Origin: an uncultured Bacteroidales bacterium | GTDB taxonomy: Bacteria > Bacteroidota > Bacteroidia > Bacteroidales > UBA932 | Length of the DNA stretch: 64,000 nucleotides | Reading direction: 5' to 3' | Assembly: GCA_900319485.1 (NCBI GenBank) | Contig: ONOQ01000015.1 | Span: 29,185-93,184 of the forward strand | In this document: piece by piece, positions 30,123-45,200 of the stretch | How positions within the stretch are numbered: the first letter of the stretch is position 1 | Layout of the letters: the number at the start of each line of letters is the position of its first letter | The notes under the pieces: model-generated | The model's input: the letters and a program-made list of their open reading frames with translations, nothing else | Told to the model about the DNA's origin: nothing | The model's database searches: none | Translations under genes and position numbers: made by a program

Positions 30123-31918
30123 ATCTAAGAAAGTTCATACCCCTCATACCCGTGGCACTCATCCTTGGGAGCCTGATGTTCCCGTGGGGCTGCGCAAACA
30201 CCACTACGCCCCCTTCAGGCGGAGACAAGGACACCATTCCCCCGGAGATGACCAAGATCTCCCCTATGCCCGGAACGGTGAACGTGAATCCCCACAGGAC
30301 CAAACTGGTTTTCACATTCAACGAATATGTGAAGATCAAGGACGCCAACGGAATCTTCCTTTCCCCTCCCCTTGAGAAAAAGCCCAAGGCCGTGATAAAG
30401 GGAAAGTCGGTTGTGGTGAGTTTTGAAAGCGACCTTGATACCAACACCACTTATACCCTGGACCTTACCGGCGCCATCGCCGACAACAACGAGGGCAATA
30501 TGTTCCCGGGCTTTACGCTGGTGTTCTCCACCGGTCCACAGATTGATTCCATGTGCCTGACGGGCCTTGTGCAGGATTTCCAGACGCTCAAGCCCCTCAA
30601 GGCGGTCACCGTTATGCTGTATAAGGACCATACCGATTCCGCAGTGTTCCTGAGGCGTCCGTATGCCGCAGCCAAAACCGACGACTGGGGCTTTTTCAGC
30701 ATCCGAAACATCAAGGACACGCTCTACCGCGTATATGCCGTAAAGGACGAGAACAACAACAATATGTACGATCCCGAAACGGAGCGGATAGCCTTCCTGG
30801 ATACCCTGTTCAGGCCAAAGACCGTATACAACGACTCAATCTACGAACTCAAGAAGTTCGAGATGAAGGATACTGCCCTGTGCCTTGCCAGAAAGACGGA
30901 CTTCGAACTCAATATGTTCCGTGAAAAGCCTTCCAAGCAACTGATAGTGAAGAAGGAAAGGGTTGGTGTGCGTACGGCTTACCTTACCTTTATGGCTCCG
31001 GATGCAAAGATCCACGATATGAGGATAAAGGGCCTGCCCCGTGAGAAACTCATCTCCCAGTTCAACCCTCAGAAAGACTCCCTGGAACTTTGGGTGAACG
31101 ACCAGCGTAAGATGCCCGACACCCTACAACTGGTGATAAAATACGACAAAACGGACACCACTGGAACGCTTGTGCCAACGGAAGAGACCGTAAGGCTGGC
31201 CCTTGACAAGAAAGTGAGGGCGGAAATGATGAAAAAGGCCAACGACATCCGCAGCCGCAAGCACGAGGATACCATTGCCGTTATGAAAACCACGGCCGAT
31301 GCTACCACCGTGGAGCAGTACGGCTACCAGATAGAGTTCCAGTACCCTCTCATTATGGAGTCCTGGGATTCCCTCACTATGAGGAGCGTGAACCCGCGCC
31401 AGCAGGAAGCGAAGATGGAATATGTCCTGGAGAAGGATTCAACCAACCTCAGGAAGTTCTCCATAAAGCCCACAACGCCTTTCCAGCAGGGTTTTGACTA
31501 TTATCTGAAGATTCCTCACCGTAAGTTCAGGGACGTCAACGGCTATTACAACGACAGTACGGAACTGAAGGTCACCCTCCCCAAGGACGACAAACTGAGC
31601 AGCATCACCCTGGAACTTTCCGGCGTGCGCAACAAGTACATCGTGGACCTCCTTGGAGAGAAACGCGACAAAGTTATCCGCAGTTTCATAGTTGAGGCCG
31701 ACGGTCCCCTGCTGTTCCCCTATCTGAAAGCCGGAAAATACTGCATAAGGATAACGGAAGACCTTAACCGCAACAATATTGTGGACACCGGAAACCTTCT
31801 GGAGCACCGCCAGCCGGAGAAAGTGCGCTTCTTCAAAGTGGACGACCAATTCCTTATCCAGGTGCTGGAAAGAAGCGAGATGGTGTGGACCCTTGACCTT
31901 GAGGAGATGTTCAGATGA
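30119..31918 (+). CDS. Lipoprotein with SbsA-type Ig-like domain
   Basis: A lipoprotein of 599 residues. The signal ends in LMFPWGC, the likely lipidated cysteine, followed by TTTPPSGGDKDTIPPE, a start common to a widespread Bacteroidetes family annotated as Ig-like domain-containing protein. Residues about 40-145 form the SbsA Ig-like domain (KISPMPGTVNVNP, NEYVKIKDANGIFLSPP); a carboxypeptidase-regulatory-like section (LTGLVQDFQTLKPLKAVTV) and a long C-terminal region follow. Function unknown, probably structural at the outer membrane. Its start overlaps relA/spoT and its stop overlaps the barrel gene (ATGA both times). Confidence 0.82.
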   Translation: MNLRKFIPLIPVALILGSLMFPWGCANTTTPPSGGDKDTIPPEMTKISPMPGTVNVNPHRTKLVFTFNEYVKIKDANGIFLSPPLEKKPKAVIKGKSVVVSFESDLDTNTTYTLDLTGAIADNNEGNMFPGFTLVFSTGPQIDSMCLTGLVQDFQTLKPLKAVTVMLYKDHTDSAVFLRRPYAAAKTDDWGFFSIRNIKDTLYRVYAVKDENNNNMYDPETERIAFLDTLFRPKTVYNDSIYELKKFEMKDTALCLARKTDFELNMFREKPSKQLIVKKERVGVRTAYLTFMAPDAKIHDMRIKGLPREKLISQFNPQKDSLELWVNDQRKMPDTLQLVIKYDKTDTTGTLVPTEETVRLALDKKVRAEMMKKANDIRSRKHEDTIAVMKTTADATTVEQYGYQIEFQYPLIMESWDSLTMRSVNPRQQEAKMEYVLEKDSTNLRKFSIKPTTPFQQGFDYYLKIPHRKFRDVNGYYNDSTELKVTLPKDDKLSSITLELSGVRNKYIVDLLGEKRDKVIRSFIVEADGPLLFPYLKAGKYCIRITEDLNRNNIVDTGNLLEHRQPEKVRFFKVDDQFLIQVLERSEMVWTLDLEEMFR

Positions 31919-32799
31919 CGGGTAAAAGACTCATACTGACAGGCCTTCTCCTTCTTGCAGGCCTTGCCGCCAGGGCCCAGGTGGACCTTGATGCGGAGTT
32001 CTTCTCCCTGCCCTCCGAAATAACCGGGGAGTATCTTGACAGCGTCACCGTCCAGAAGATGTCCCCCAACAATTACTGGGCTGCAGGCGTGTTCGGAGGC
32101 GTAACGCTTAACTACGGTTACTTCAACCCCACCAGGTACACCCGCTGGATGGCGCAGTACCCGGCATACGGATTCTCCGTCATCCGCCACTACACCATGT
32201 TCAATATGTTCCCCAATATGGCGCTGGAGTTCGGCGCCCAGATGGGGCACGAGGGCTACGAGTTCAAGATCAACAAGGAAACCGGTCTCAGGACCAATGT
32301 GGAGCCCGGTACGGGCGCTTACAAGATATATATGAAGGTGCCGGAGGTATTCTTCCTCACCCATTTCCACGGAGACCTCTCCGACCACTTCAAACTGATG
32401 CTGAAGATCGGCATCTACGGAGGATACAGGCTGGACATAAAGCGTGACATAGATGAGAGATATGCCCCGTATGACCAGTATATGTCCACCCAGTACAAGT
32501 TTATGGACTATGACCGCAGGCCTTCATACGGCGTAAGGGGCGGAGTCGGCTTCGGCCTTATGTTCGACCCTATAGAGATTCACGTTATGGTCCAGGGCAA
32601 GTGGGGATGGAATTCTTTCTGGAATCCGGACTATACAAACAAGTTCTACTACCGCTTCGGATATCCCCTTGATTCCGGCCTTACCATCGGCGTATATTAT
32701 CAACTTACTCCAAGGTTCGGCCATACGGGGTCTCAACTGAGAAAACTTGCAAAGAAGATAGTGGAAGAAGAAAACACGTTAAGAGATGCTAGAGACTAA
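31915..32799 (+). CDS. Secreted/outer-membrane beta-barrel-like protein
   Basis: A protein of 294 residues with a signal peptide (MTGKRLILTGLLLLAGLAARA). The mature sequence is aromatic and glycine-rich with alternating strands (VFGGVTLNYGYFN, LMLKIGIYGGYRLDIK, VRGGVGFGLMF, TIGVYYQLTPRFG), and it resembles PorT-like outer-membrane proteins in layout. A charged helix closes the C-terminus, so it does not end on an aromatic residue. It is coupled by ATGA to the lipoprotein and overlaps the ispG start by 14 bases. No specific family is claimed. Confidence 0.72.
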   Translation: MTGKRLILTGLLLLAGLAARAQVDLDAEFFSLPSEITGEYLDSVTVQKMSPNNYWAAGVFGGVTLNYGYFNPTRYTRWMAQYPAYGFSVIRHYTMFNMFPNMALEFGAQMGHEGYEFKINKETGLRTNVEPGTGAYKIYMKVPEVFFLTHFHGDLSDHFKLMLKIGIYGGYRLDIKRDIDERYAPYDQYMSTQYKFMDYDRRPSYGVRGGVGFGLMFDPIEIHVMVQGKWGWNSFWNPDYTNKFYYRFGYPLDSGLTIGVYYQLTPRFGHTGSQLRKLAKKIVEEENTLRDARD

Positions 32800-33983
32800 G
32801 ACTGTCACCGTTGGTTCCAACGTACTTATAGGAAGCGGCCACCCCATTGTGGTCCAGACAATGTGCAACACGCATACCTCGGACGTTGACGCAACGGTGG
32901 CCCAGTGCCGCCGCCTTGCCGCCGCGGGCTCTGAACTTATCCGCATCACCGTGCCCTCGATGAAGGACGTCCCCTGCCTTGAGGAAATAAGCCGGAGGCT
33001 TCGCGCGGAGGGTATCGGCACTCCCCTTGTGGCCGATATCCACTTTTCCCCCGAGATTGCCATGGCCGTGGTCCCCATCGTGGAGAAGATCTTCGGATTA
33101 CGGAAGAGCCATTCGTATCGGCCTTAATCACGGATCCCTTGGAAAGTACATCATAGACAAGTACGGGAACACGCCGGAGGCAATGGCCCTTGCCGCCTTC
33201 GAGTGGGTACAGATGTGCCGGGAGGCCGATTTCCACAACGTTGTGGTGTCCCTGAAGGCCTCCAACACCGTGGTGATGGTCCAGGCGTACCGCCGCCTTG
33301 CCGCCATGATGCAGGAATCAGGCGTGGTGTATCCACTTCATGTGGGCGTAACAGAGGCCGGAAACGGAGACAGCGGCCGCATAAAGTCCTGCGTCGCCAT
33401 TTCAACCCTTCTTTCCGAGGGTATCGGCAATACTATCCGCGTGTCCCTCACCGAAGACCCCGCCAATGAGATTCCCGTTGCGCAGTACCTTGCGCACAGG
33501 TACTCATCGGCCCCGGCCCCTGCCGGAATGAGTGAACGGGAGGAAACCATCCTAAAGGCGGCCTGCGACTGGGGCGCTCCCCTTCTGAATCATCAGATTG
33601 ACGACATTCCCATTGAGGACGAATACCTCAAGGATGAGATCCTGCAGGCCTGCAGGCGCCGTTTCTATAAACCGGAGTACATTGCCTGCCCCGGCTGCGG
33701 AAGGACGCTCTACGACCTTGAAAACACATTCAATAAGGTAAAGGAGCGCACCTCCCATTTCAAGGATGTGGTGATTGCCGTCATGGGCTGCATAGTGAAC
33801 GGCCCCGGAGAGATGGCCGATGCCGATTACGGCTATGTGGGAGAAGGTTTCGGGAAGGTTACCCTGTACCGTAAAAAAGACCCCGTCCTTAGGCATATAC
33901 CTGAAGACGAGGCTGTAGATAAACTTGTCGAGCTAATTCGAAGGGATTCGGAGCAAAGCGACGCAGGGGGTCTGGGGGATTAG
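32786..33983 (+). pseudogene. ispG: 4-hydroxy-3-methylbut-2-enyl diphosphate synthase, frame-broken
   Basis: The first frame (ATG 32786 to about 33088) encodes the start of IspG/GcpE (VTVGSNVLIGSGHPIVVQTM, SELIRITVPS, PLVADIHFSPEIA) and breaks after VEKI. A second frame carries on from about 33093 (DYGRAIRIGLNHGSLG, HLGVTEAGNGDSGRIKS, NTIRVSLTEDP) to the iron-sulfur domain (CPGCGRTLYDLENT; MGCIVNGPGE), with all three cluster cysteines. The conserved RINPG block is missing at the junction, consistent with loss of about 11 bases. IspG reduces MEcPP in the MEP isoprenoid pathway and is normally essential, so an error or a rare allele is plausible. The Bacteroidetes A* insert between the two domains is also much shorter than usual. 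Confidence 0.85.
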
Positions 33984-34687: not shown

Positions 34688-35524
34688 TTAGACTAATTCA
34701 AATAAAAGAAGGTAAATATAACCGGCGGGAATGGCGAACAGGGCGCTGTCAAAACGGTCCATGAGGCCGCCGTGGCCGGGAATGAGGTTTCCGGAGTCCT
34801 TGATGCCTGCGGCGCGTTTCCACAGGGATTCAAAGAGGTCTCCGAAAACTCCCGCAACGCTCATAATGGCGGCCATGATGAGGCAGTGCCAAATGGGGAA
34901 GGTAAAAAGCCCGGTCCAGTAAAGGATAGCCCCTGCAAGGACAGATGTGAGAAGGCCGCCTATAAAGCCCGCCCAGGATTTCTTGGGGGAAATGGAGGGA
35001 CAGAGTTTTGCGGGCCATATTTTCTGGCCAAGGAGCATCCCGAAGCAGTATGCGCCTGTGTCGGAGGCCCAGATGATGATAAAGAACGCAACCATCAGAA
35101 GGCCGCTGAAAGTGCCGTTGCTGTAAACTACGACGTTTGACAGGGCAATTGGAATGCCGATATAGAGAAGACCCGCGTACAGATAGCCCGTTTTGAGGAA
35201 GTCCTTGTGATCCTTCTGGAAAATGGACCATATCATTATGGCTCCGGTGAGGATGAAAAGGCTGGGAAAAAACGTTTCTGATAAGGATTCACCCCTGTAA
35301 AGGCAACTTCCCGCTATCCACACAAGGGCGGCGCCCATACAGGCTGCAAAATCCTGCAGCACCCTGTAAGAGTTTCCCATTGTCATCCGGTAAAACTCGC
35401 TTAGCATTATGTAGGAGATAAGCGAGAACAGGATTATGAACACTATCCTGTTAATAAGGAGCCCTCCCAGCATTACTGCAAGGAAGAGGACTCCGAATAT
35501 GGTGCGTTTTACTGTAGGGTTCAT
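34688..35524 (-). CDS. cdsA: Phosphatidate cytidylyltransferase
   Basis: An inner-membrane enzyme of 278 residues with about seven or eight hydrophobic helices. Near the C-terminus it has the CdsA signature, here KDSGNLIPGHGGLMDRFDSA, and earlier DTGAYCFGMLLG and SPKKSWAGFIGG. It makes CDP-diacylglycerol from phosphatidic acid and CTP, the branch point to all phospholipids. The ATG overlaps the ftsH stop by four bases, and psd follows directly. Confidence 0.95.
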   Translation of the reverse strand: MNPTVKRTIFGVLFLAVMLGGLLINRIVFIILFSLISYIMLSEFYRMTMGNSYRVLQDFAACMGAALVWIAGSCLYRGESLSETFFPSLFILTGAIMIWSIFQKDHKDFLKTGYLYAGLLYIGIPIALSNVVVYSNGTFSGLLMVAFFIIIWASDTGAYCFGMLLGQKIWPAKLCPSISPKKSWAGFIGGLLTSVLAGAILYWTGLFTFPIWHCLIMAAIMSVAGVFGDLFESLWKRAAGIKDSGNLIPGHGGLMDRFDSALFAIPAGYIYLLLFELV

Positions 35525-37458
35525 TCCGCGGGTGATGTTTGGAACTGGTCATCGGCCTTGGGTTTTACCTTGGGCCCCAGGATTTTCTCAATATCCTCTG
35601 CAAAGATAACTTCTTTTTCCAGAAGGAGAGCGCCAAGGCTCATAAACTCTTCCTTGTGCTCATCTATGAGTTTACGGGTTCTGTCGTGAACTTCCTTGAC
35701 AATGGATTTCACCTCCTTGTCCATAAGCTCCGCCGTTTTCTCAGAGTAGGGCTTCACCAGGTTGTAGCCGCGGGCGCCGCTGGAATCGTAGAAAGAGAGG
35801 GCTCCCACGTTATCCGACATACCGTAGTACTGGACCATTGCGTAGGCCATTCCGGTCATACGCTCAAGGTCATTGAGGGCGCCCGTGGAAGGCTCTCCGT
35901 TGAGGATTTCCTCCGCTACGCGGCCGCCGATGAGGACGCTCATCTGGTCCATCATAATTGAACGGGACCAGTTTTTCCTTTCCTCCGGGAGGCTCCAGGT
36001 AAGGCCCAGTGCGTTTCCGCGGGGGATGATGCTTACCTTGAACACGGGATCTGCGTAAGGAAGGAGCCAGCCAACAAGGGCGTGACCGGCTTCGTGATAG
36101 GCCGTGGTGCGTTTTTCCGCGGGAGTCATAATGGTGTTGGACTTTCTCTCAAGACCGCCGATAATGCGGTCTACGGCATCCAGGAAGTCCTGCTGGAGCA
36201 CGGCGGTGTGGCCGCGTCGGGCAGCCGTGAGGGCTGCTTCGTTGCAGACGTTGGCTATATCGGCCCCGGAGAAACCCGGAGTGTGCTTTGCCATAAACTC
36301 CACGTTGAAGTCTTCTCCCAGTTTGATGCCCTTGAGGTGCACCTGGAATATTTCCTCGCGTTCCTTCAGTTCAGGGAGTTCCACGTGAATCTGGCGGTCA
36401 AAGCGGCCGGCGCGCATAAGGGCCTGGTCAAGGATGTCGGAGCGGTTGGTGGCGGCGAGAACGATTACGCCGCTGTTGGTGCCGAATCCGTCCATTTCCG
36501 TGAGGAGTTGGTTGAGGGTGTTCTCACGTTCGTCGTTGGATGAGAAGCCTCCGTTTTTGGCCCTTGCGCGGCCTACGGCGTCAATTTCATCAATGAATAC
36601 GATGCACGGAGCCTTCTCCTTTGCCTGGCGGAAGAGATCCCTCACGCGTGATGCGCCTACGCCCACGAACATTTCCACGAAGTCTGAACCGGAAATGGAG
36701 AAGAAAGGAACGTTGGCCTCCCCTGCCACAGCCTTTGCAAGCAGGGTTTTACCGGTACCGGGAGGGCCCACCAGGAGGGCTCCCTTGGGGATTTTGCCGC
36801 CAAGGGCGGTGTACTTGGAAGGGTTCTTGAGGAAGTCCACTATTTCCATAACTTCCTCCTTGGCGCCGTAAAGGCCCGCCACGTCCTTGAATGTGACGTT
36901 CACCTGGCCTTTATCGGCCTCCTTTGCGGTGGACTTACCAGTGTTGAAGGGGTTGAAACCGCCTCCTCCAGGGCCTCCGGGGCCGCCTGCGCCACGGTTT
37001 ACGCCGCGGAACATAAGCACCCAGAACAATATGAGGATAAGGAGCGGGAGTATCATCTGGAGGATATCCATCCAGACGCGCTCCTGGTTTTTCATTATGA
37101 CCTTGAACTGGTCCTGGGGTATGAGTTTGGAGTTTAGTTCCTGGAACTGGGTTTCAGGGTCAAACTTGGTTGAGACCAGGAAATAGAAGTGAGGGGCGCG
37201 CCTCGGGGGCTGCCCGCCGTGGAATTTGTCGGCGTACTTTGCAAGGCGTTCCGGACGAACCTTTACCTCTCCCTTGAAGTCGTTGCGGATAAAGGTTATT
37301 TCCGCAACGTCTCCGCTTTCAATCATATTCTGGACATCCGTCCATTCAATCTTTTCCGGCGCTGCGGTGCGCTGGTTGGAAAACAGCATATAGCCTATTC
37401 CAATGAGCAGCAGGACGTAGAACCAGGAAAAGTTGAAACTTATAGTTTTCTTTGCCAT
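35521..37458 (-). CDS. ftsH: ATP-dependent zinc metalloprotease FtsH
   Basis: A membrane protease of 645 residues. Membrane helices at about 10-26 and 128-150 flank a periplasmic domain; a Gly/Pro-rich linker follows, then the AAA+ domain (Walker A GPPGTGKT at about 231, Walker B IVFIDEID, arginine-finger region MRAGRFDRQ) and the M41 protease with HEAGH at about 455. It degrades membrane and regulatory proteins. The start lies immediately after the rsfS stop with no gap, and its stop overlaps cdsA. The window's order rsfS-ftsH-cdsA-psd is typical of Bacteroidetes. Confidence 0.97.
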
Positions 37459-37836
37459 TTAGTCCTCTTTTTTTGCCGATTTTGTGCTTTTGCGAAGTTG
37501 GTACTCCTTGCGGGGGACATCGGCCCAAAGGTCCTCCAGGCGGTAGAAATCCCTGTATTCCTTAAGGAAGACGTGCACCACTATGTTGCCGTAGTCCTGA
37601 ATTATCCAGAAGTTGTTGCCTTCCCCCTGGGAGCGGAGAAGCCTGTGGCCTTCCTCCCGCATCTTTTCCTCTATGTTGTCTGATATGGCGCCAACCTGGG
37701 TAGTGTTTGAGCCGCTGCACACCACAAAGTAATCCGTGATGGCACCGTCAATTGCCCTTAGGTCAAGGGATACAACGTCCTCTCCTTTCTTGTCCAGGAT
37801 AGCGTCTGCGATAAGCCTAAGATCGTGGGTAATCAT
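37459..37836 (-). CDS. rsfS: Ribosomal silencing factor RsfS
   Basis: A protein of 125 residues with the RsfS/Iojap fold: VSLDLRAIDGAITDYFVVCSG, QVGAISDNIEEKM, and the signature WIIQDYGNIVVHVFL followed by YRDFYRLEDLW. It binds uL14 on the large subunit and blocks subunit joining when nutrients are short. An upstream in-frame start at 37863 would lie inside the -7 box, so the ATG at 37836 is preferred. First gene of the ftsH-cdsA-psd operon. Confidence 0.93.
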   Translation of the reverse strand: MITHDLRLIADAILDKKGEDVVSLDLRAIDGAITDYFVVCSGSNTTQVGAISDNIEEKMREEGHRLLRSQGEGNNFWIIQDYGNIVVHVFLKEYRDFYRLEDLWADVPRKEYQLRKSTKSAKKED

Positions 37837-37850
37837 ATTTGTGTTTTTCC

Positions 37851-37868
37851 TTAAATCATACAAAGATA
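37851..37868 (-). promoter_or_regulatory. rsfS operon promoter, identical to the PFK promoter over 18 bp
   Basis: TTAAATCATACAAAGATA; on the minus strand TATCTTTG (37861-37868) is the -7 box. It decides the rsfS start. Confidence 0.6.
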
Positions 37869-38025: not shown

Positions 38026-39657
38026 ATGAGTGCTAAAAAGTATATTCAGGTGATAGTCCCGCTAAAACTGGACTGGGAGCCTGTATACTCCGTCCCGGAT
38101 GGCCTGCAGGTGTCAGAAGGAGACCGGGTAAGCGTCATTTTCTCCGGAAAAGAGTACATTTCCGTTGTCAGCAAGACGGATGTTACGCCCCTTGACGGAA
38201 TCCGTGAGAGCGATATCCAGGAAGTTCTTGACAAGGTGGATTACCTCCCCCGCATAACGGAGCGGGAACTGCGTTTTTGGAAGATGACAGCCTCCTATTA
38301 CTTGTGCACTCTTGGTGAGGTTTACAAAAGCGTCTATTTCCAGGACCAGAGACCGCCCCGCAAATGGGTCCCGAAAGACAGGAGCGCCATTGCCTCGGAA
38401 CCGGTTCTGTCACGGGAATTGGAATCGGCCTTTGAAGGCACGCTTGACGCCTTCACCAAAGGCCGCACCGTGCTTTTTCAAGGAGCCGGTCATGAGGACC
38501 GCACTGAACTTTATCTGAAACTTGCGGTAAACGCTGTAAATAAAGGCAAATCAGTGCTTTATCTTGTTCCTGGAATTGCAGTATCGGCCCTTTTGGAAAA
38601 GCGCGTCCGGGAGGTTTTTCCTGAGGTCTCAATTTACCACAGCGGGCAAACCGCCGCAAAGAAAAGGGACATTGTGCTGGAAGCCCGGCAGGGGCGTCCC
38701 ATGCTGGTGCTTGGCACAAGGAGTTCCCTATTTATCCCTTTCAGCAACCTTGGTCTTGTGATAGTTGATGAGGAGCAGGACGTCTTCTACAAGCAGGACT
38801 CCCCCGCTCCCCGTTATCACGCCCGTGAATGCGCCATAATGCTTGCCTCGGTATGCGGCGCAAACGTGATCCTTGGAAGTTCCACTCCATCCCTGGAGGC
38901 CCTTCACAATGCCCGAACGGGGCTTTTTGCCGATATACGGCCATCCGGAGAGGCGGATAGCAGCCGCCACGCCGTAATTGTTATCGATACCTCTGCCGAG
39001 CGCCGTAAGCGCGGTATGGTTGGAGAAGTGTCGCTGAAACTGCTTGCAGAGGTGAAGAAAGTAGCGGATTCCGGCGGTAAAATCCTTGTTGTAAGTTGGA
39101 CGGAAGAACCTGATCTTCAGGGAGTAAGTTATACAACGCCTGTTGCAGTAAAGAGCATTCCTACGGATGGATATGACCTCATTGCGCTTCTTCAGGCCGA
39201 TACCCTCCTCGGCCGTCAGGATTTCCGTTCAGATGAACGCGCCCTGCAACTTCTCAGGCGCCTCAATGCCTCCTGCCCCCTTGTCGTCCAGACAAAGGAA
39301 TCCGGCCACCCCGTATTCCAGGCCATTTCCAAGGCTCCAACTGGCCTTTATGACAATATGATGGCGGAAAGGCAGGCCTTCGGCTATCCCCCGTTCACCC
39401 GTATGGTCAAACTTGAACTTAAGGATTCAGATGAAAATCGGCAAAAACTCCGCGCCCGTTTCCTTGGAAACAGGATCAGGGAGGTTCTGAGGCCATTTTC
39501 GGATCCCCTTATCCTGGGACCTGAAAAGGGTGAAATCCGCATTTTCTTCAAACGTGATAAAAATCTCACGGCCGGTAAGCAGGCACTGTATAAAGAAGTC
39601 ACTTCTTTTGAGCAGCAGTACTCCTGTCACGTCACCATAGACGTGGACCCCGTATAA
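38026..39657 (+). CDS. priA: Degenerate PriA-like primosomal protein (helicase motifs lost)
   Basis: A cytoplasmic protein of 543 residues that follows PriA along its length: an N-terminal 3'-DNA-binding domain (PLKLDWEPVYSVPDGLQVSEGDRVSVIF), LGLVIVDEEQDVFYKQDSPAPRYHARECA in two stretches as motif II, GSSTPSLEAL as motif III, and the C-terminal AERQAFGYPPFTRMVKLEL block. But Walker A, normally GxTGSGKTE, reads GAGHEDRTE (about residues 153-161) without the lysine. The cysteine-rich zinc domain is absent, and the QVAGRAGR motif VI is replaced by QLLRRLNASCP. PriA is usually 730-820 residues. It can hardly be an ATP-driven helicase; it may still load the primosome as a scaffold. Start chosen at ATG 38026 rather than TTG 38020. 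Confidence 0.8.
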   Translation: MSAKKYIQVIVPLKLDWEPVYSVPDGLQVSEGDRVSVIFSGKEYISVVSKTDVTPLDGIRESDIQEVLDKVDYLPRITERELRFWKMTASYYLCTLGEVYKSVYFQDQRPPRKWVPKDRSAIASEPVLSRELESAFEGTLDAFTKGRTVLFQGAGHEDRTELYLKLAVNAVNKGKSVLYLVPGIAVSALLEKRVREVFPEVSIYHSGQTAAKKRDIVLEARQGRPMLVLGTRSSLFIPFSNLGLVIVDEEQDVFYKQDSPAPRYHARECAIMLASVCGANVILGSSTPSLEALHNARTGLFADIRPSGEADSSRHAVIVIDTSAERRKRGMVGEVSLKLLAEVKKVADSGGKILVVSWTEEPDLQGVSYTTPVAVKSIPTDGYDLIALLQADTLLGRQDFRSDERALQLLRRLNASCPLVVQTKESGHPVFQAISKAPTGLYDNMMAERQAFGYPPFTRMVKLELKDSDENRQKLRARFLGNRIREVLRPFSDPLILGPEKGEIRIFFKRDKNLTAGKQALYKEVTSFEQQYSCHVTIDVDPV

Positions 39658-39707
39658 TTCTGTGGAACTTTGTGGAACAATTGCAAGGAAATCTAAAGAT
39701 TTCTTTG

Positions 39708-39715
39708 TATTTTTG
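39708..39715 (+). promoter_or_regulatory. -7 box (TATTTTTG) for parAB
   Basis: The box ends six bases before the parA ATG at 39722, so a leaderless message is expected. It also excludes longer parA starts upstream. Confidence 0.55.
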
Positions 39716-39721
39716 CAGTCT

Positions 39722-40492
39722 ATGGGAAAAATTATTGCAATAGCCAACCAGAAAGGCGGCGTGGGAAAAACCACTACCGCCATCAACCTTGCCGCATCTC
39801 TTGCGGTCCTGGAGAAAAGAGTACTCATCATTGACGCAGATCCTCAGGCCAACACCACCTCAGGCCTCAACTTTGACCCGGAGAACAGTGATCACCGTAC
39901 CCTGTATGAGATACTTATAGGGAAATTATCGGCCAGTGACGCCCTCATCCAGACGGAACTTCCTAAACTCCATATGATCCCCTCCCACATCAACCTTGTG
40001 GGCGCGGAGATTGAACTCCTGAACGTTCCGGACCGTGAATCCGTGCTAAAAAAGGCCCTTCAGCCCATCAGGGACAACTATGATTTCATCATCATAGACT
40101 GCTCCCCTTCCCTGGGCCTCATCACAGTGAACTGCCTCACGGCCGCTGATTCCGTAATGATTCCCGTCCAGCCGGAGTTCTTTGCCCTGGAAGGCCTTGC
40201 AAAACTTATCCAGACCATCCGCCTGGTCCAGAACGGAATCAATCCCGCCCTTACCATAGAAGGCTTTGTGGTCACTATGTTCGACGGCCGTACAAAGGTG
40301 CACAACCAGGTTGTGGCCCAACTCCGTGACCATTTCCAGGATATGGTATTCAATACCGTGATCCAGAGGAGCATACGTCTCAGCGAGGCTCCTTCCTACG
40401 GTAAGCCCATCATCCTCTACGACGTAATGAATAACGGTACGTCCAACTATATGAACCTTGCAAAGGAAGTCCTGGACAAGAACAATAACTAA
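39722..40492 (+). CDS. parA: Chromosome partitioning ATPase ParA (Soj)
   Basis: A cytoplasmic ATPase of 256 residues. The deviant Walker A KGGVGKTTTAINLA is near residue 11, VLIIDADPQANTT follows, and the Walker B-type IIIDCSPSLGLITVN is near 115. It is a chromosomal Soj-type ParA without an N-terminal regulatory domain and moves ParB-parS complexes. A longer frame upstream would run through the -7 box, so the ATG at 39722 is used. parB starts one base after its stop. Confidence 0.95.
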   Translation: MGKIIAIANQKGGVGKTTTAINLAASLAVLEKRVLIIDADPQANTTSGLNFDPENSDHRTLYEILIGKLSASDALIQTELPKLHMIPSHINLVGAEIELLNVPDRESVLKKALQPIRDNYDFIIIDCSPSLGLITVNCLTAADSVMIPVQPEFFALEGLAKLIQTIRLVQNGINPALTIEGFVVTMFDGRTKVHNQVVAQLRDHFQDMVFNTVIQRSIRLSEAPSYGKPIILYDVMNNGTSNYMNLAKEVLDKNNN

Positions 40493-40493
40493 T

Positions 40494-41417
40494 ATGGCAG
40501 CAAAGAATCAGTATGGCCTTGGAAAGGGCCTTGGAGCCCTTCTGGGCGGTGAAGACCTATCCGAATTAAGGAAACCCGTAGGTTACATCAACAAGGAAGT
40601 GGTATCAACCGAGGGCAAGCCTCAGGACACCTCCGACGTCCTCCGCATCCCCATAGACCTCATTGAGCCCAACCCCTACCAGCCCCGTATGACATTCGCC
40701 TCGGAGGCTATGCAGGAACTGGCCGATTCAATCCGTACCTTCGGCCTTATCCAGCCCATCACCGTACGCCGCAAAGGAGACAAATACCAGATAATCAGCG
40801 GTGAACGCCGTTACCGCGCCTCCATTATGGCAGGAATGGATATGATTCCCGCATATATCCGTGACGCCTCGGAGCAGGGTATGCTGGAGATGGCAATAGT
40901 GGAGAATATCCAGAGGGAGAACCTTGACCCCATTGAGGTTGCAATGAGTTACCAGCGCCTCATAGACGAGTGCTCCCTCACCCAGGAGCAGATGGCAGAC
41001 CGCGTTGGCAAGAAGCGCGCTTCCGTTGCCAACCAACTGAGGCTCCTCAAACTCCCCGCAAAGGTCCAGCACGACCTTAAGGTGGGCCTTGTGAGCGTAG
41101 GTCACGCAAAGGTCCTTCTTGGCGTGGAAGATGCCGCCACGCAGGAAATGCTCTGCGATATGATAGTGAAAAACGGCCTGTCCGTGCGCCAACTTGAGGA
41201 AAAGATAAAGGCCATGGGCAAGAAGAAGGAACCCGTTCAGGAAGACGGCGCCCAGGAACTCCCAGAGATGTATTACAGGCTCCTTGAGAATGTGGGCAAG
41301 TACTTCGGTGAGAATATCTCCCTGAAGCGCACCCGTGACGGAAAGGGCACTATGACCATAAAGTTCGACTCTGACTCCCAGATGGAGCAGTTCCTCAAAG
41401 CCCTGGACGCCAGATGA
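40494..41417 (+). CDS. parB: Chromosome partitioning protein ParB
   Basis: A protein of 307 residues. It starts with the ParA-activating GLGKGLGALLGG peptide, continues with PNPYQPR and the GERRYRAS CTPase box, then ENIQRENLDPIEVAMSYQRL and the helix-turn-helix (LTQEQMADRVGKKRASVANQ), and ends in the dimer domain. It binds parS, loads as a CTP-dependent clamp and recruits SMC. A possible degenerate parS is at 45201. Its stop overlaps the DUF5683 start (ATGA). Confidence 0.95.
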   Translation: MAAKNQYGLGKGLGALLGGEDLSELRKPVGYINKEVVSTEGKPQDTSDVLRIPIDLIEPNPYQPRMTFASEAMQELADSIRTFGLIQPITVRRKGDKYQIISGERRYRASIMAGMDMIPAYIRDASEQGMLEMAIVENIQRENLDPIEVAMSYQRLIDECSLTQEQMADRVGKKRASVANQLRLLKLPAKVQHDLKVGLVSVGHAKVLLGVEDAATQEMLCDMIVKNGLSVRQLEEKIKAMGKKKEPVQEDGAQELPEMYYRLLENVGKYFGENISLKRTRDGKGTMTIKFDSDSQMEQFLKALDAR

Positions 41418-42336: not shown

Positions 42337-43554
42337 ATGAGAAGATTGTTATTGGCCGTCCTGGGTCTTGCCCTATGTGCCGGCTCACTATATTCACAGG
42401 AAAAGGATACCCTCCTCCAGAGGTGGTATCTTCACCGCCAATCAAAGCAGCAGTCCCCGGATGCCGGGTACAATATGGATTCCGTGAAGTTCACCACCAA
42501 CGTCCCGGATTCCGTCCTTATGGCCCGCCTTGAAAGGATGCACAGTTTCATCACGCTCCCCTATAACGAGACTGTGAAGAACTATATGGTCCTGTACAGT
42601 GAGAAGATGCCAGGAAGGATGTCGGAAATCCTCTCGCTCAGTGAATATTACTTCCCCATATTTGAAGAAACGCTTGACCGTTACGGGCTGCCTCTGGAAC
42701 TGAAGTATATGGCCGTCATAGAGAGCCACCTCAACCCCAGGGCGGAGTCTGTCTACGGGGCCAAGGGCCTGTGGCAGTTTATGTATCGCACCGGCCTCAG
42801 TTACGGCCTCAGGGTGAATTCCTACATAGACGAGCGTATGGATCCCGTCCTCTCTACGGATGCCGCCTGCAGGTACCTCAAGGACGCCTACGCCATCTTC
42901 GGCAGTTGGCCGCTTGCGATATCGGCCTACAACTGCGGCAGCGGAAACGTGAACAAGGCCATCAAAAGGGCCGGAGGAAGCACGGACTACTGGAAAGTGT
43001 ACGATTACCTCCCCCGCGAGACCAGAGGCTACGTGCCGGCTCTTGTGGGCGCCATGTACGCCATCAACTACGCCCGGGAATATGGTATAAGGCCTGCTCC
43101 CGCCGCCGTTCCGGAATATGTGGACACCTTCCACGTGCACAGGAATATCCATCTGAGGCAGATATCGGAGGTTATGGGCATCCCTATGGACGACATCCGC
43201 GACCTTAACCCCCAGTATTTCAAGGACTACGTTCCCGGAGCCGGGGCCGATGAAGTGATCCGTCTCCCCTTCGCCTACAGCGGCTCCTTTATGGACCTCC
43301 AGGATTCAATAGTAAGGTATAAGGCCGATGTCCTCCTGGGCGGAAAGATAACCGACGGCCGGGAGGTTGTGAACGGCCGTCCGGTCCAGACCAGCGCCGG
43401 CACTTCCTGGGTGTACTACAAGGTTAAATCCGGGGATACACTGAGCCACATCGCAAAGAAGTATCACTGCTCCGTAAAGCAACTCAAATCCTGGAACAAC
43501 CTTAAGAGCGACCGGATTTCCATCGGCCAGCGCCTTAAGGTTGGGAAGCGCTAG
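42337..43554 (+). CDS. mltD: Membrane-bound lytic murein transglycosylase D with LysM
   Basis: A secreted protein of 405 residues with a signal peptide (MRRLLLAVLGLALCAGSLYS). The GH23 lysozyme-like domain includes LPLELKYMAVIESHLNPRA with the catalytic glutamate (about E128), GAKGLWQFMYRTG and ISAYNCGSGNVNKAI. A linker and one LysM domain (YYKVKSGDTLSHIAKKYH) close the protein. It cuts peptidoglycan to 1,6-anhydro ends. The ATG at 42337 is preferred to a TTG at 42331. Fourth gene after parA-parB-DUF5683; the stop overlaps the convergent gene by four bases. Confidence 0.92.
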   Translation: MRRLLLAVLGLALCAGSLYSQEKDTLLQRWYLHRQSKQQSPDAGYNMDSVKFTTNVPDSVLMARLERMHSFITLPYNETVKNYMVLYSEKMPGRMSEILSLSEYYFPIFEETLDRYGLPLELKYMAVIESHLNPRAESVYGAKGLWQFMYRTGLSYGLRVNSYIDERMDPVLSTDAACRYLKDAYAIFGSWPLAISAYNCGSGNVNKAIKRAGGSTDYWKVYDYLPRETRGYVPALVGAMYAINYAREYGIRPAPAAVPEYVDTFHVHRNIHLRQISEVMGIPMDDIRDLNPQYFKDYVPGAGADEVIRLPFAYSGSFMDLQDSIVRYKADVLLGGKITDGREVVNGRPVQTSAGTSWVYYKVKSGDTLSHIAKKYHCSVKQLKSWNNLKSDRISIGQRLKVGKR

Positions 43555-45143
43555 ATTCCGGCTACAAGCTGAAGATTCAGGACGGGGGCAGGTCTGCTCC
43601 CGTTTTTAAATGTGCAACCTCCTCTAAGATAAAACTTTAAGGTAAGGCGCCTGAACCGGTGCTGAATGCTTCCCGTTGCCGATACTGAAACTCCCCTGCC
43701 ATTATAAGCCAGAACGGAAAAACTGCCGGGGGCGTCCCTCTCGTAGACATAGACGCGGCTTGCCCATTTGTCAATCCTGAAGCCCGTTACGCGGAGATAG
43801 GCCGATACGGAATCACTCTTATATCCGCCCTCGAGATAACTGAGCAGGCCCCAGGATGAATCGCAATTTACGGCCTCAAGCCGAAGCGCGGAAAGAAAGG
43901 GGCCGGGCGCAAATTTAAGATCGGCCCTGAGGTCTGTCCTCGGGGGCTCATAGTTCCGGTAACGCTCCGTGACGCGGCTTTCCAGGGACCAGATATCCGT
44001 TATGTTCCAGAGTACCCGCCCATAGGCGCGGAGTTGGAAGCGTCCGGGATCCGTGTACGGGATGGGGAGCATTGCTGCATCGGCGGTAAGGGATGCCAGC
44101 ACCTTGCGGTTATTGAACTCAAGGCCCGCCGCGGCGGCGTACTCCCCGTTCTTTTTCCCGGAGTATCTTACGGGAATCACCCTCCCCTGCAAGGCCAGGC
44201 GGAAATACTCCCCGAGGGATGCCCTGATGGCCGATATTCCGGCAAAGGAGCCGTTTTTGAAAGCCACTTCCCCGCTCACTATGACGCCCCTCAGGTTGAC
44301 CTTTGCATCGGCCGACAGCATAAGCCCGGAAGTTGCCGTAAACCCCGCCTGGAAATGCCTGCCAAGGTACTCACCGCGCGCACCGAAGGTCCTGTCAAAG
44401 GATCCGAAAGCCTGTGCCCTCCAGTGATTTGAGGAGTACTCGTAGGCAAGGCCCCTCTGCACTCCGGAACTTGTGAATGACCACACCGGAGATATGCCCT
44501 GGGCGCGTTTCAGGAAGGCGTCTACGGTGGAGAGGTTGTCCATTGAGAATCCGGTCCAGAGGCCAAGACCTTCGGCGAAACGGACCTTGTAATCCCCCGC
44601 CACCACCCGGTGGTTCCGGAAGGAGGCCTCCCCGTAGAAAGTACCGTCCCATTTTTTGAAACCTTCACCGCATCTTACGGCCCCGCCGGCCCTCCAGGAG
44701 CGCCCCGTCACCTTCACTTTGCCGCCGGCGGAACTGAGGGTTCCCCGAAGGAGCGCCTGCGCCTTTGTCTTTGTGGTGTCCGACGCCCCGGGAAGACGAG
44801 AGGATTCAAGGGAGAGGAAGGGCTGGAGGATATCTACATCGGCCTCCGTAAATCCTTCAAGAAGAGACAGTTCCGTCCAGGAAAGGATATCCCCGGAGGA
44901 AGCCCTGTAATCCCGTATCACCGCCACCTGATAGTCGCTGAGGACGGCCGATGCCCGGAGGCTCCCGGAATTCACCCTTACTGGCCTTCCGCGGAGGGCC
45001 TCCAACTGGTCCACCAGGGCCTCGTCCACTTCTTCTTCAGTGCTGGCCCCGCCAAGCAGCATCGCTGCCCTCAGAACCTCCTGGTCCTGAGCCGCTGCGG
45101 GTATGGTGAGAGCCCATAGCAATATGCCCACAAACTTTCTCAT
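43551..45143 (-). CDS. Helix-hairpin-helix domain outer-membrane barrel protein
   Basis: A protein of 530 residues with a signal peptide (MRKFVGILLWALTIPAAA). Residues about 55-115 show two ComEA-like helix-hairpin-helix units (LSDYQVAVIRDYRASSGDIL, LSLLEGFTEADVDILQPFLS). The rest is a glycine/aromatic alternating pattern of a large beta-barrel (VKVTGRSWRAGGAVRCG, GSIQHRFRRLTLKFYLRGG). A family of this build is common in Bacteroidetes and unstudied. Coupling of a DNA-binding-type HhH to a barrel makes a role in DNA uptake or surface binding thinkable, but HhH can also bind protein. ATG 45143 is preferred because it begins the signal peptide. Confidence 0.75.
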   Translation of the reverse strand: MRKFVGILLWALTIPAAAQDQEVLRAAMLLGGASTEEEVDEALVDQLEALRGRPVRVNSGSLRASAVLSDYQVAVIRDYRASSGDILSWTELSLLEGFTEADVDILQPFLSLESSRLPGASDTTKTKAQALLRGTLSSAGGKVKVTGRSWRAGGAVRCGEGFKKWDGTFYGEASFRNHRVVAGDYKVRFAEGLGLWTGFSMDNLSTVDAFLKRAQGISPVWSFTSSGVQRGLAYEYSSNHWRAQAFGSFDRTFGARGEYLGRHFQAGFTATSGLMLSADAKVNLRGVIVSGEVAFKNGSFAGISAIRASLGEYFRLALQGRVIPVRYSGKKNGEYAAAAGLEFNNRKVLASLTADAAMLPIPYTDPGRFQLRAYGRVLWNITDIWSLESRVTERYRNYEPPRTDLRADLKFAPGPFLSALRLEAVNCDSSWGLLSYLEGGYKSDSVSAYLRVTGFRIDKWASRVYVYERDAPGSFSVLAYNGRGVSVSATGSIQHRFRRLTLKFYLRGGCTFKNGSRPAPVLNLQLVAGI

Positions 45144-45200
45144 ATCTGCCAAATTACCAAAGAAATGGCGTATTTTAAAGGGGGTGTTGATAACTTGTGT

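Follow-up and report, generated by a model that had tools for sequence, protein, structure and literature searches.

The stretch of DNA analysed here (hereafter the window) covers 64,000 nucleotides of contig ONOQ01000015.1, from an uncultured Bacteroidales bacterium. It carries an open reading frame (ORF) for a PriA orthologue, which occupies the same genomic place as the intact PriAs of its relatives. The ORF keeps the PriA layout from the 3'-DNA-binding domain to the C-terminal domain, as an earlier reading made from the letters alone (the sequence-only reading) had described, with several motor motifs reduced to relics and the zinc domain missing (Table 1).

Table 1. Features of the PriA locus, in window coordinates (aa, amino acids)
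Feature	Position	Strand	Remarks
Putative PriA-derived pseudohelicase ORF	38026..39657	+	543 aa from ATG, plus stop
3'-DNA-binding domain, residues 8-103, retained	38047..38334	+	Pfam PriA_3primeBD 2.5e-15
Walker A relic GAGHEDRT, residues 153-160, replacing GxTGSGKT	38482..38505	+	
Motif II relic DEEQ, residues 248-251, replacing DEEH	38767..38778	+	E250 invariant
YKQDSPAPRYHAR, loop after motif II in helicase domain 1, residues 255-267, retained	38788..38826	+	
Motif III GSSTPS, residues 284-289, retained in part	38875..38892	+	
Site of missing zinc (cysteine-rich) domain	39094..39138	+	Lies between the columns of motifs IV and V
Motif V relic TTPVAVKSIPT, residues 370-380	39133..39165	+	
DFRSDER, residues 399-405, retained	39220..39240	+	R401 and E404 invariant (77 PriAs)
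Motif VI relic, residues 412-418	39259..39279	+	
C-terminal domain with DVDPV end, retained	39391..39654	+	PF18074 aligned over 456-542
Allelic island, 56-68% identical to L110 in nucleotides, with flanks about 95.5% identical	about 38100..39300	+	
ParA	39722..40492	+	At some loci next to PriA, whether intact or degenerate
ParB	40458..41417	+	As for ParA
Divergently oriented neighbours ftsH and rsfS	35521..37863	-	Common to close relatives L040-L044

Lost and retained parts of the window PriA

The altered Walker A and motif II and the absence of the cysteine-rich zinc region, all reported in the sequence-only reading, are borne out by our alignment. R159 falls in the Walker A lysine column, and the interval between motifs IV and V holds 8 residues and no cysteine, against about 102-113 residues with 8-9 cysteines in full PriAs of the genus. 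In an alignment of 77 PriAs, the eight cysteine columns of the zinc domain are gaps in all 47 degenerate rows. Motifs V and VI with their arginines were not found in the window PriA. The proposed loss of motif VI stands, with one correction of its register, the motif VI glutamine column corresponding to R412 and not to Q408. The further claim that the lost parts all serve ATP hydrolysis or primosome contact proved too narrow, because the winged helix, described as a duplex-binding part of E. coli PriA (PMC10175261), is missing too.

A second, intact PriA, which the sequence-only reading had suggested looking for, was found neither by protein nor by family search in the window's own genome (2.5 Mb, 91 contigs, 93.5% complete). 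The other frames matching the PriA model are Mfd, UvrB and RecG, and a paralogue was rejected. A split-off zinc domain elsewhere in the genome was also considered and rejected, as a profile of the segment from the zinc domain to motif VI returned helicase background only (best 3.7e-10). For this single genome a PriA could lie in the missing 6.5%. Eight other genomes (G023, G030, G165, G277, G289, G078, G384 and G280), each at least 96% complete, have a zinc-less PriA and no zinc-to-VI segment. Since a homologue 82% identical to the window PriA (in G149) and many more distant ones carry the same degenerate state, chance can be excluded as its origin.

Selection acts on what is left. The median ratio of nonsynonymous to synonymous substitution rates (dN/dS) is 0.127 in 11 disjoint pairs of close degenerate PriAs and 0.087 in 9 disjoint intact pairs, and over all close pairs it is 0.118 in both classes (20 degenerate, 48 intact). 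The neighbouring ParA, RsfS, FtsH and ParB give 0.00-0.05 where it could be computed. The 30 intact rows share 131 columns conserved to at least 95%, and 65 of these persist in 80% or more of the 47 degenerate rows. They lie in the 3'-DNA-binding domain, a GTRS stretch, the motif II glutamate, the loop after motif II (which we take to be the fork-junction loop of the E. coli complex), the segment around R401 and E404, and the C-terminal domain. Residues invariant in all 77 PriAs include P12, G32, Y91, Y92 and C94 in the first domain, K256, P262, R263 and R267 in the loop, and P455, P456, R459, D541 and P542 in the last. The PriA 3'-DNA-binding model PF17764 scores 56.5 bits, above its Pfam cut-off of 22.7. 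By its dN/dS values and kept columns, the degenerate PriA is under purifying selection, with its DNA-contacting parts kept.

In the E. coli complex a loop of helicase domain 1 is located at the fork junction, and the zinc domain forms a pore for single-stranded DNA (ssDNA) together with the docking site for PriB, as described in PMC10175261. Because the 65 kept columns match the fork-binding parts of the E. coli protein, the portion of PriA that was kept would, by analogy, be largely the one that reads forks, the portion lost being the motor, the pore and the docking site.

Spread and order of loss in the genus

We sampled 400 genomes of the genus, which is possibly Cryptobacteroides in GTDB, one per species; the relatives with named records are uncultured Bacteroidales or Bacteroidia, many with rumen or gut sampling names. 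PriA was matched in 356 of them, which we searched with the zinc-to-VI profile and binned by E-value. The full segment is kept in 192 genomes (187 reaching 1e-90 and 5 between 1e-60 and 1e-90). Another 16, with values between 1e-15 and 1e-60, have relics or cut genes. The remaining 148 fall short of 1e-15; because contig ends truncate some of the genes (in G022, for example, PriA is a 207-aa frame only), this number is the maximum for zinc-less PriA. Most of the PriA-bearing genomes outside the 192 seem to carry a motor-less PriA. When 142 distinct PriAs, including 7 from outgroups, were compared by coarse patterns for five marks, 56 had all five, 62 had none and 24 were mixed. Some single records stood out: G312 has two zinc-bearing PriA segments and is likely a mixed bin, while the full-type PriAs of L144 and L151 lie in unusually long frames of 1133 and 1145 aa, which are extensions or fusions. 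In L101 (G366:C13, bases 619-2299) a full-type PriA with intact Walker A runs through two frames, switching near base 1562, by a real frameshift or a sequencing error.

For a rooted RpoB tree we searched 80 genomes from all PriA classes and obtained 54 matches, of which 49 rows were kept after dropping G300, G227 and the fragments of G247, G303 and G108; six PriA-less genomes in the tree were excluded from the tests. G300 has two rpoB genes and is likely a mixed bin, and in G227 (C1:69234-72994) rpoB lies as two pieces in different open frames, likely through an assembly frameshift. On this tree, counting only branches with good support, the degenerate PriA needs at least seven label changes, and the grouping of all degenerate rows in one clade (27 rows vs 16) is rejected in the approximately unbiased test (p-AU 1e-34). 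Rejection is less firm for a single clade on the window's own side (p 0.006), in a test chosen after the tree had been seen. If loss is irreversible, about six losses are needed on the best tree and about four with weak branches collapsed. The comparison with relatives that the sequence-only reading had proposed therefore shows a loss that is common in the genus and dispersed over its tree, which also excludes an assembly error as its source.

The PriA gene itself gives a less uniform picture. Its tree without the trait columns has 4 changes; quick trees of the two halves give 8 changes (3 forced) for the N-terminal half and 2 (1 forced) for the C-terminal half, and L118 falls with intact kin in the first and with degenerate kin in the second. 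Long branches may pull the degenerate C-terminal halves together. Because the halves disagree, repeated loss and fewer losses followed by spread through recombination are both possible.

The order of loss can be traced in part. The spacer between the 3'-DNA-binding domain and motif Ib measures 130 aa in the window PriA and 236-291 aa in five of six outgroup PriAs (142 aa in the sixth, L039); among 56 intact genus mates, it is 128-178 aa long in 49 and 185-261 aa in 7. Since the nearest intact PriAs have 128-133 aa, shortening at the winged helix preceded motor loss in the window's clade, with the motor still whole. The zinc domain and motifs V and VI would have gone next, the Walker A lysine tending to go last. 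L118 (whose PriA is the same as that of L051), L050 and L048 keep a Walker A ending in GKT and lack the zinc domain and motifs V and VI, and L041-L044, 65% identical to the window PriA, still read GSGKK at a site where this motif is gone from both the window PriA and G149. Walker A would accordingly be the last part to decay, although L118 may be a chimaera, which calls for caution about this order.

Two possible correlates of the loss were rejected. There is no sign of joint loss with recombination functions, as RecA exceeded its cut-off in 75 of the 80 genomes and RecG in 70 (with six further fragments), and both are present in the window's genome; the gaps are largely incomplete bins, since RpoB was found in only 54 of the same 80. 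Genome reduction was likewise not retained: completeness-corrected size is 2.44 Mb for 47 degenerate and 2.59 Mb for 22 intact genomes, a weak difference, uncorrected for kinship (p 0.036).

Interpretation and its alternatives

We consider it likely that the window PriA is a pseudohelicase orthologue kept for the recognition of forks and D-loops and for the delivery of DnaB; its retained role is probably a passive one, that of a marker bound to broken replication forks. Abandoned forks or D-loops would be recognised through the 3'-end-binding domain, the helicase domain 1 loop and the C-terminal domain. The protein would mark or block the fork and could help to bring DnaB there with a DciA-type loader, the unwinding of the nascent lagging strand being left to other helicases or skipped. 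DnaB, RecA, RecG and a DciA-type loader are present in the genome. We infer that the protein lacks ATPase activity, binds forks and keeps a role in restart.

Several observations weigh against this interpretation. Changes in the zinc domain of E. coli PriA stop PriB-dependent loading of DnaB (PMC10175261). A PriA without this domain may therefore fail to load DnaB by the same route, and the order Bacteroidales is without an identified PriA partner. PF18074 scores 16.6 bits, under its Pfam cut-off of 26.9, yet with the whole model aligned, and TIGR00595 reaches 196.4 bits, under its curated cut-off of 230.35. A predicted structure model, in which the PriA fold spans the whole chain and helix or strand is absent between residues 107 and 129, leans to that fold because its input alignment includes 30 intact PriAs. 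The PriA protein also evolves faster than its neighbours. Finally, PriA went undetected in 44 of the 400 genus genomes, so PriA may be dispensable in some species. Most of the 44 are incomplete, which may account for the gap, but 6 of them belong to the 150 genomes of good quality.

A second search of these 44 genomes, with a PriA profile, gave matches confined to lobe 1 (roughly positions 120-250), and most of the matching frames are as long as Mfd or RecG; the exception is in G104, where a frame of 73 aa aligns to the C-terminal part of PriA. Examples without PriA are G335, G032 and G259, whether by true absence or as incomplete bins. A clean priA deletion in G335 relative to G307 was also considered, but only 60 bases of the 2.8-kb G307 locus match in G335, where the flanks are missing too.

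Among the alternatives, the degenerate PriA might do another job than restart, either as a structural DNA-junction protein linked to parA-parB or as a fork blocker that stops polymerases. The adjoining ParA and ParB, the lost zinc and partner-docking domain and the swapping of segments between PriA alleles (see below) would fit such a role. However, the order PriA-ParA-ParB is found in the window, at intact loci (L011, L055, L056, L063) and at degenerate ones (L045-L053, L066, L068), and the neighbourhood is thus uninformative. Many other loci of both kinds are without ParA inside the fetched stretch, among them the degenerate L013 and L015-L018, and the retained residues sit in the parts that bind forks in E. 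coli. We regard this explanation as unlikely.

PriA segments have been exchanged between chromosomes. The flanks of the window and of L110 are 95.5% identical over 15.7 kb and PriA only 67.2%, the divergent island (about 38100-39300) ending inside the gene. Identity at four-fold degenerate sites runs 82, 54, 34, 31 and 85% along PriA, and is 89% in ParA and 81% in ParB. Since this silent identity drops as well, the island reflects replacement by recombination and not mere fast protein change. Similarly, L118 and its intact relative L140 have flanks at 91.7%; their N-terminal halves are 95% identical as protein, with a synonymous divergence (dS) of 0.30-0.50, and their C-terminal halves 50-65%, with dS of about 1.06. 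The latter half of L118 groups with degenerate rows in a quick tree, with a support of 90 in the Shimodaira-Hasegawa-like approximate likelihood ratio test (SH-aLRT). A donor for it could not be named by BLAST, the best match still being the intact L140 (62%). We compared 53 locus pairs, not independent of one another, whose flanks span 1500 bases or more and are no less than 82% identical. The identity of PriA trails that of the flanks by 10 points or more in 22 of the 30 degenerate pairs, which come from 4 of 5 synteny groups, and in the single mixed pair, but in none of 22 intact pairs. Still, several intact pairs also have PriA below ParA in four-fold identity (63 vs 90% in L149/L159, 68 vs 83% in L162/L172), and a tendency to exchange may therefore belong to the gene and not to its degenerate form.

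These islands, together with the scatter of the loss on the tree, bring up conflict as a cause: phages or plasmids that recruit the primosome would select for loss of the motor and of zinc docking and for rapid exchange of alleles. As an alternative to the interpretation above we find this quite unlikely, given that dN/dS within alleles is well under 1 and that the intact pairs just mentioned diverge in the same manner. A related proposal, that the motor-less, zinc-less PriA is a transferable module which arises or spreads by recombination of PriA segments, with phages or plasmids that recruit the primosome as one possible source of diversifying selection, appears to us rather unlikely. If it were true, PriA would be a conflict locus at which the helicase and the zinc docking site are the part given up, its alleles being exchanged between species inside otherwise nearly identical chromosomes.

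A decaying pseudogene, or a redundant paralogue on its way out, could account for the many missing catalytic residues, for a rate of change above that of ParA, RsfS, FtsH and ParB, for the genus members without detectable PriA and for the full-type gene broken between two frames in L101. Decay is contradicted by the selection test, in which dN/dS of about 0.12 comes near that of intact PriA. Internal stops are absent from all listed matches, no second PriA was found in the genome, and 65 anciently conserved columns persist in the degenerate copies; we judge this explanation very improbable. An artefact of assembly, binning or frameshift has a negligible chance: nearly all records are metagenome-assembled genomes and some bins look mixed (such as G300), yet the same state recurs in many of them from different projects and hosts, in open frames with synteny shared by close relatives.

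Away from PriA, the window differs from its relatives at further sites. Alignment gaps totalling 74 bases occur at about 33000-33300 against all four relatives aligned there, near the interval between the ORFs at 31915-32799 and 33027-33983. At the priA-parA junction (39600-39900), gaps of 74-243 bases are present against L109, L110, L111 and L115, with none marked against L112. Positions 43500-44700, at an ORF on the reverse strand (43551-45152) for a variable protein with no assigned function, are 65-84% identical to L111, L112 and L115, beside stretches at 84-93%.

Comparison with known systems

Our search of openly licensed PubMed Central articles found, among the matches listed, neither PriA loss in Bacteroidales nor a zinc-less PriA. 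Partial counterparts are known elsewhere. Actinobacterial PriA has been described as a smaller, very divergent putative orthologue (PMC1193525). Like the window PriA, it is shortened, divergent and found in a large clade, the two being set side by side by description only. From annotation records, we assume that it lacks the helicase motifs. The NCBIfam PRK14873 models, which presumably carry the actinobacterial label, give at most 77.5 bits for the window PriA, against 213.8 for the best PriA model. The E. coli structure PDB 6dcr is that of a PriA engineered to lack only the winged helix, with motor and zinc domain present.

E. coli PriA K230R is without ATPase and unwinding activity, which survival does not strictly require (PMC4504706). 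It would share a helicase-dead state with the window PriA but is a laboratory point mutant with an unchanged zinc domain. We take the name of this allele to be priA300. Since E. coli can live without PriA helicase activity, the purpose of that activity is open to question, and the genus offers a natural experiment on it, with near before-and-after pairs; in one of them L140 is intact and L118 is without zinc domain, motif V and motif VI. It also shows that selection can maintain a PriA from which the zinc domain is absent, which would therefore call for another route of DnaB to the fork, perhaps with DciA, or for another use of PriA.

The closest parallel is PriA of Deinococcus radiodurans, a proven pseudohelicase, for which no ATPase or unwinding was measured, binding to forks and ssDNA is kept and there is evidence for contact with DnaB (PMC4504706). 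As described there, it is likewise an orthologue without the Walker A lysine and with an altered motif II; we compare the two by published description, not by sequence. As the window PriA would resemble the Deinococcus protein in function but lacks defining features of the PriA helicase family, we class it as a putative PriA-derived pseudohelicase. The change in Deinococcus-Thermus is reported for motifs I and II, and the word zinc is absent from that paper (PMC4504706). The window PriA also lacks the zinc domain, motifs V and VI and the winged helix, and its state is scattered within one genus.
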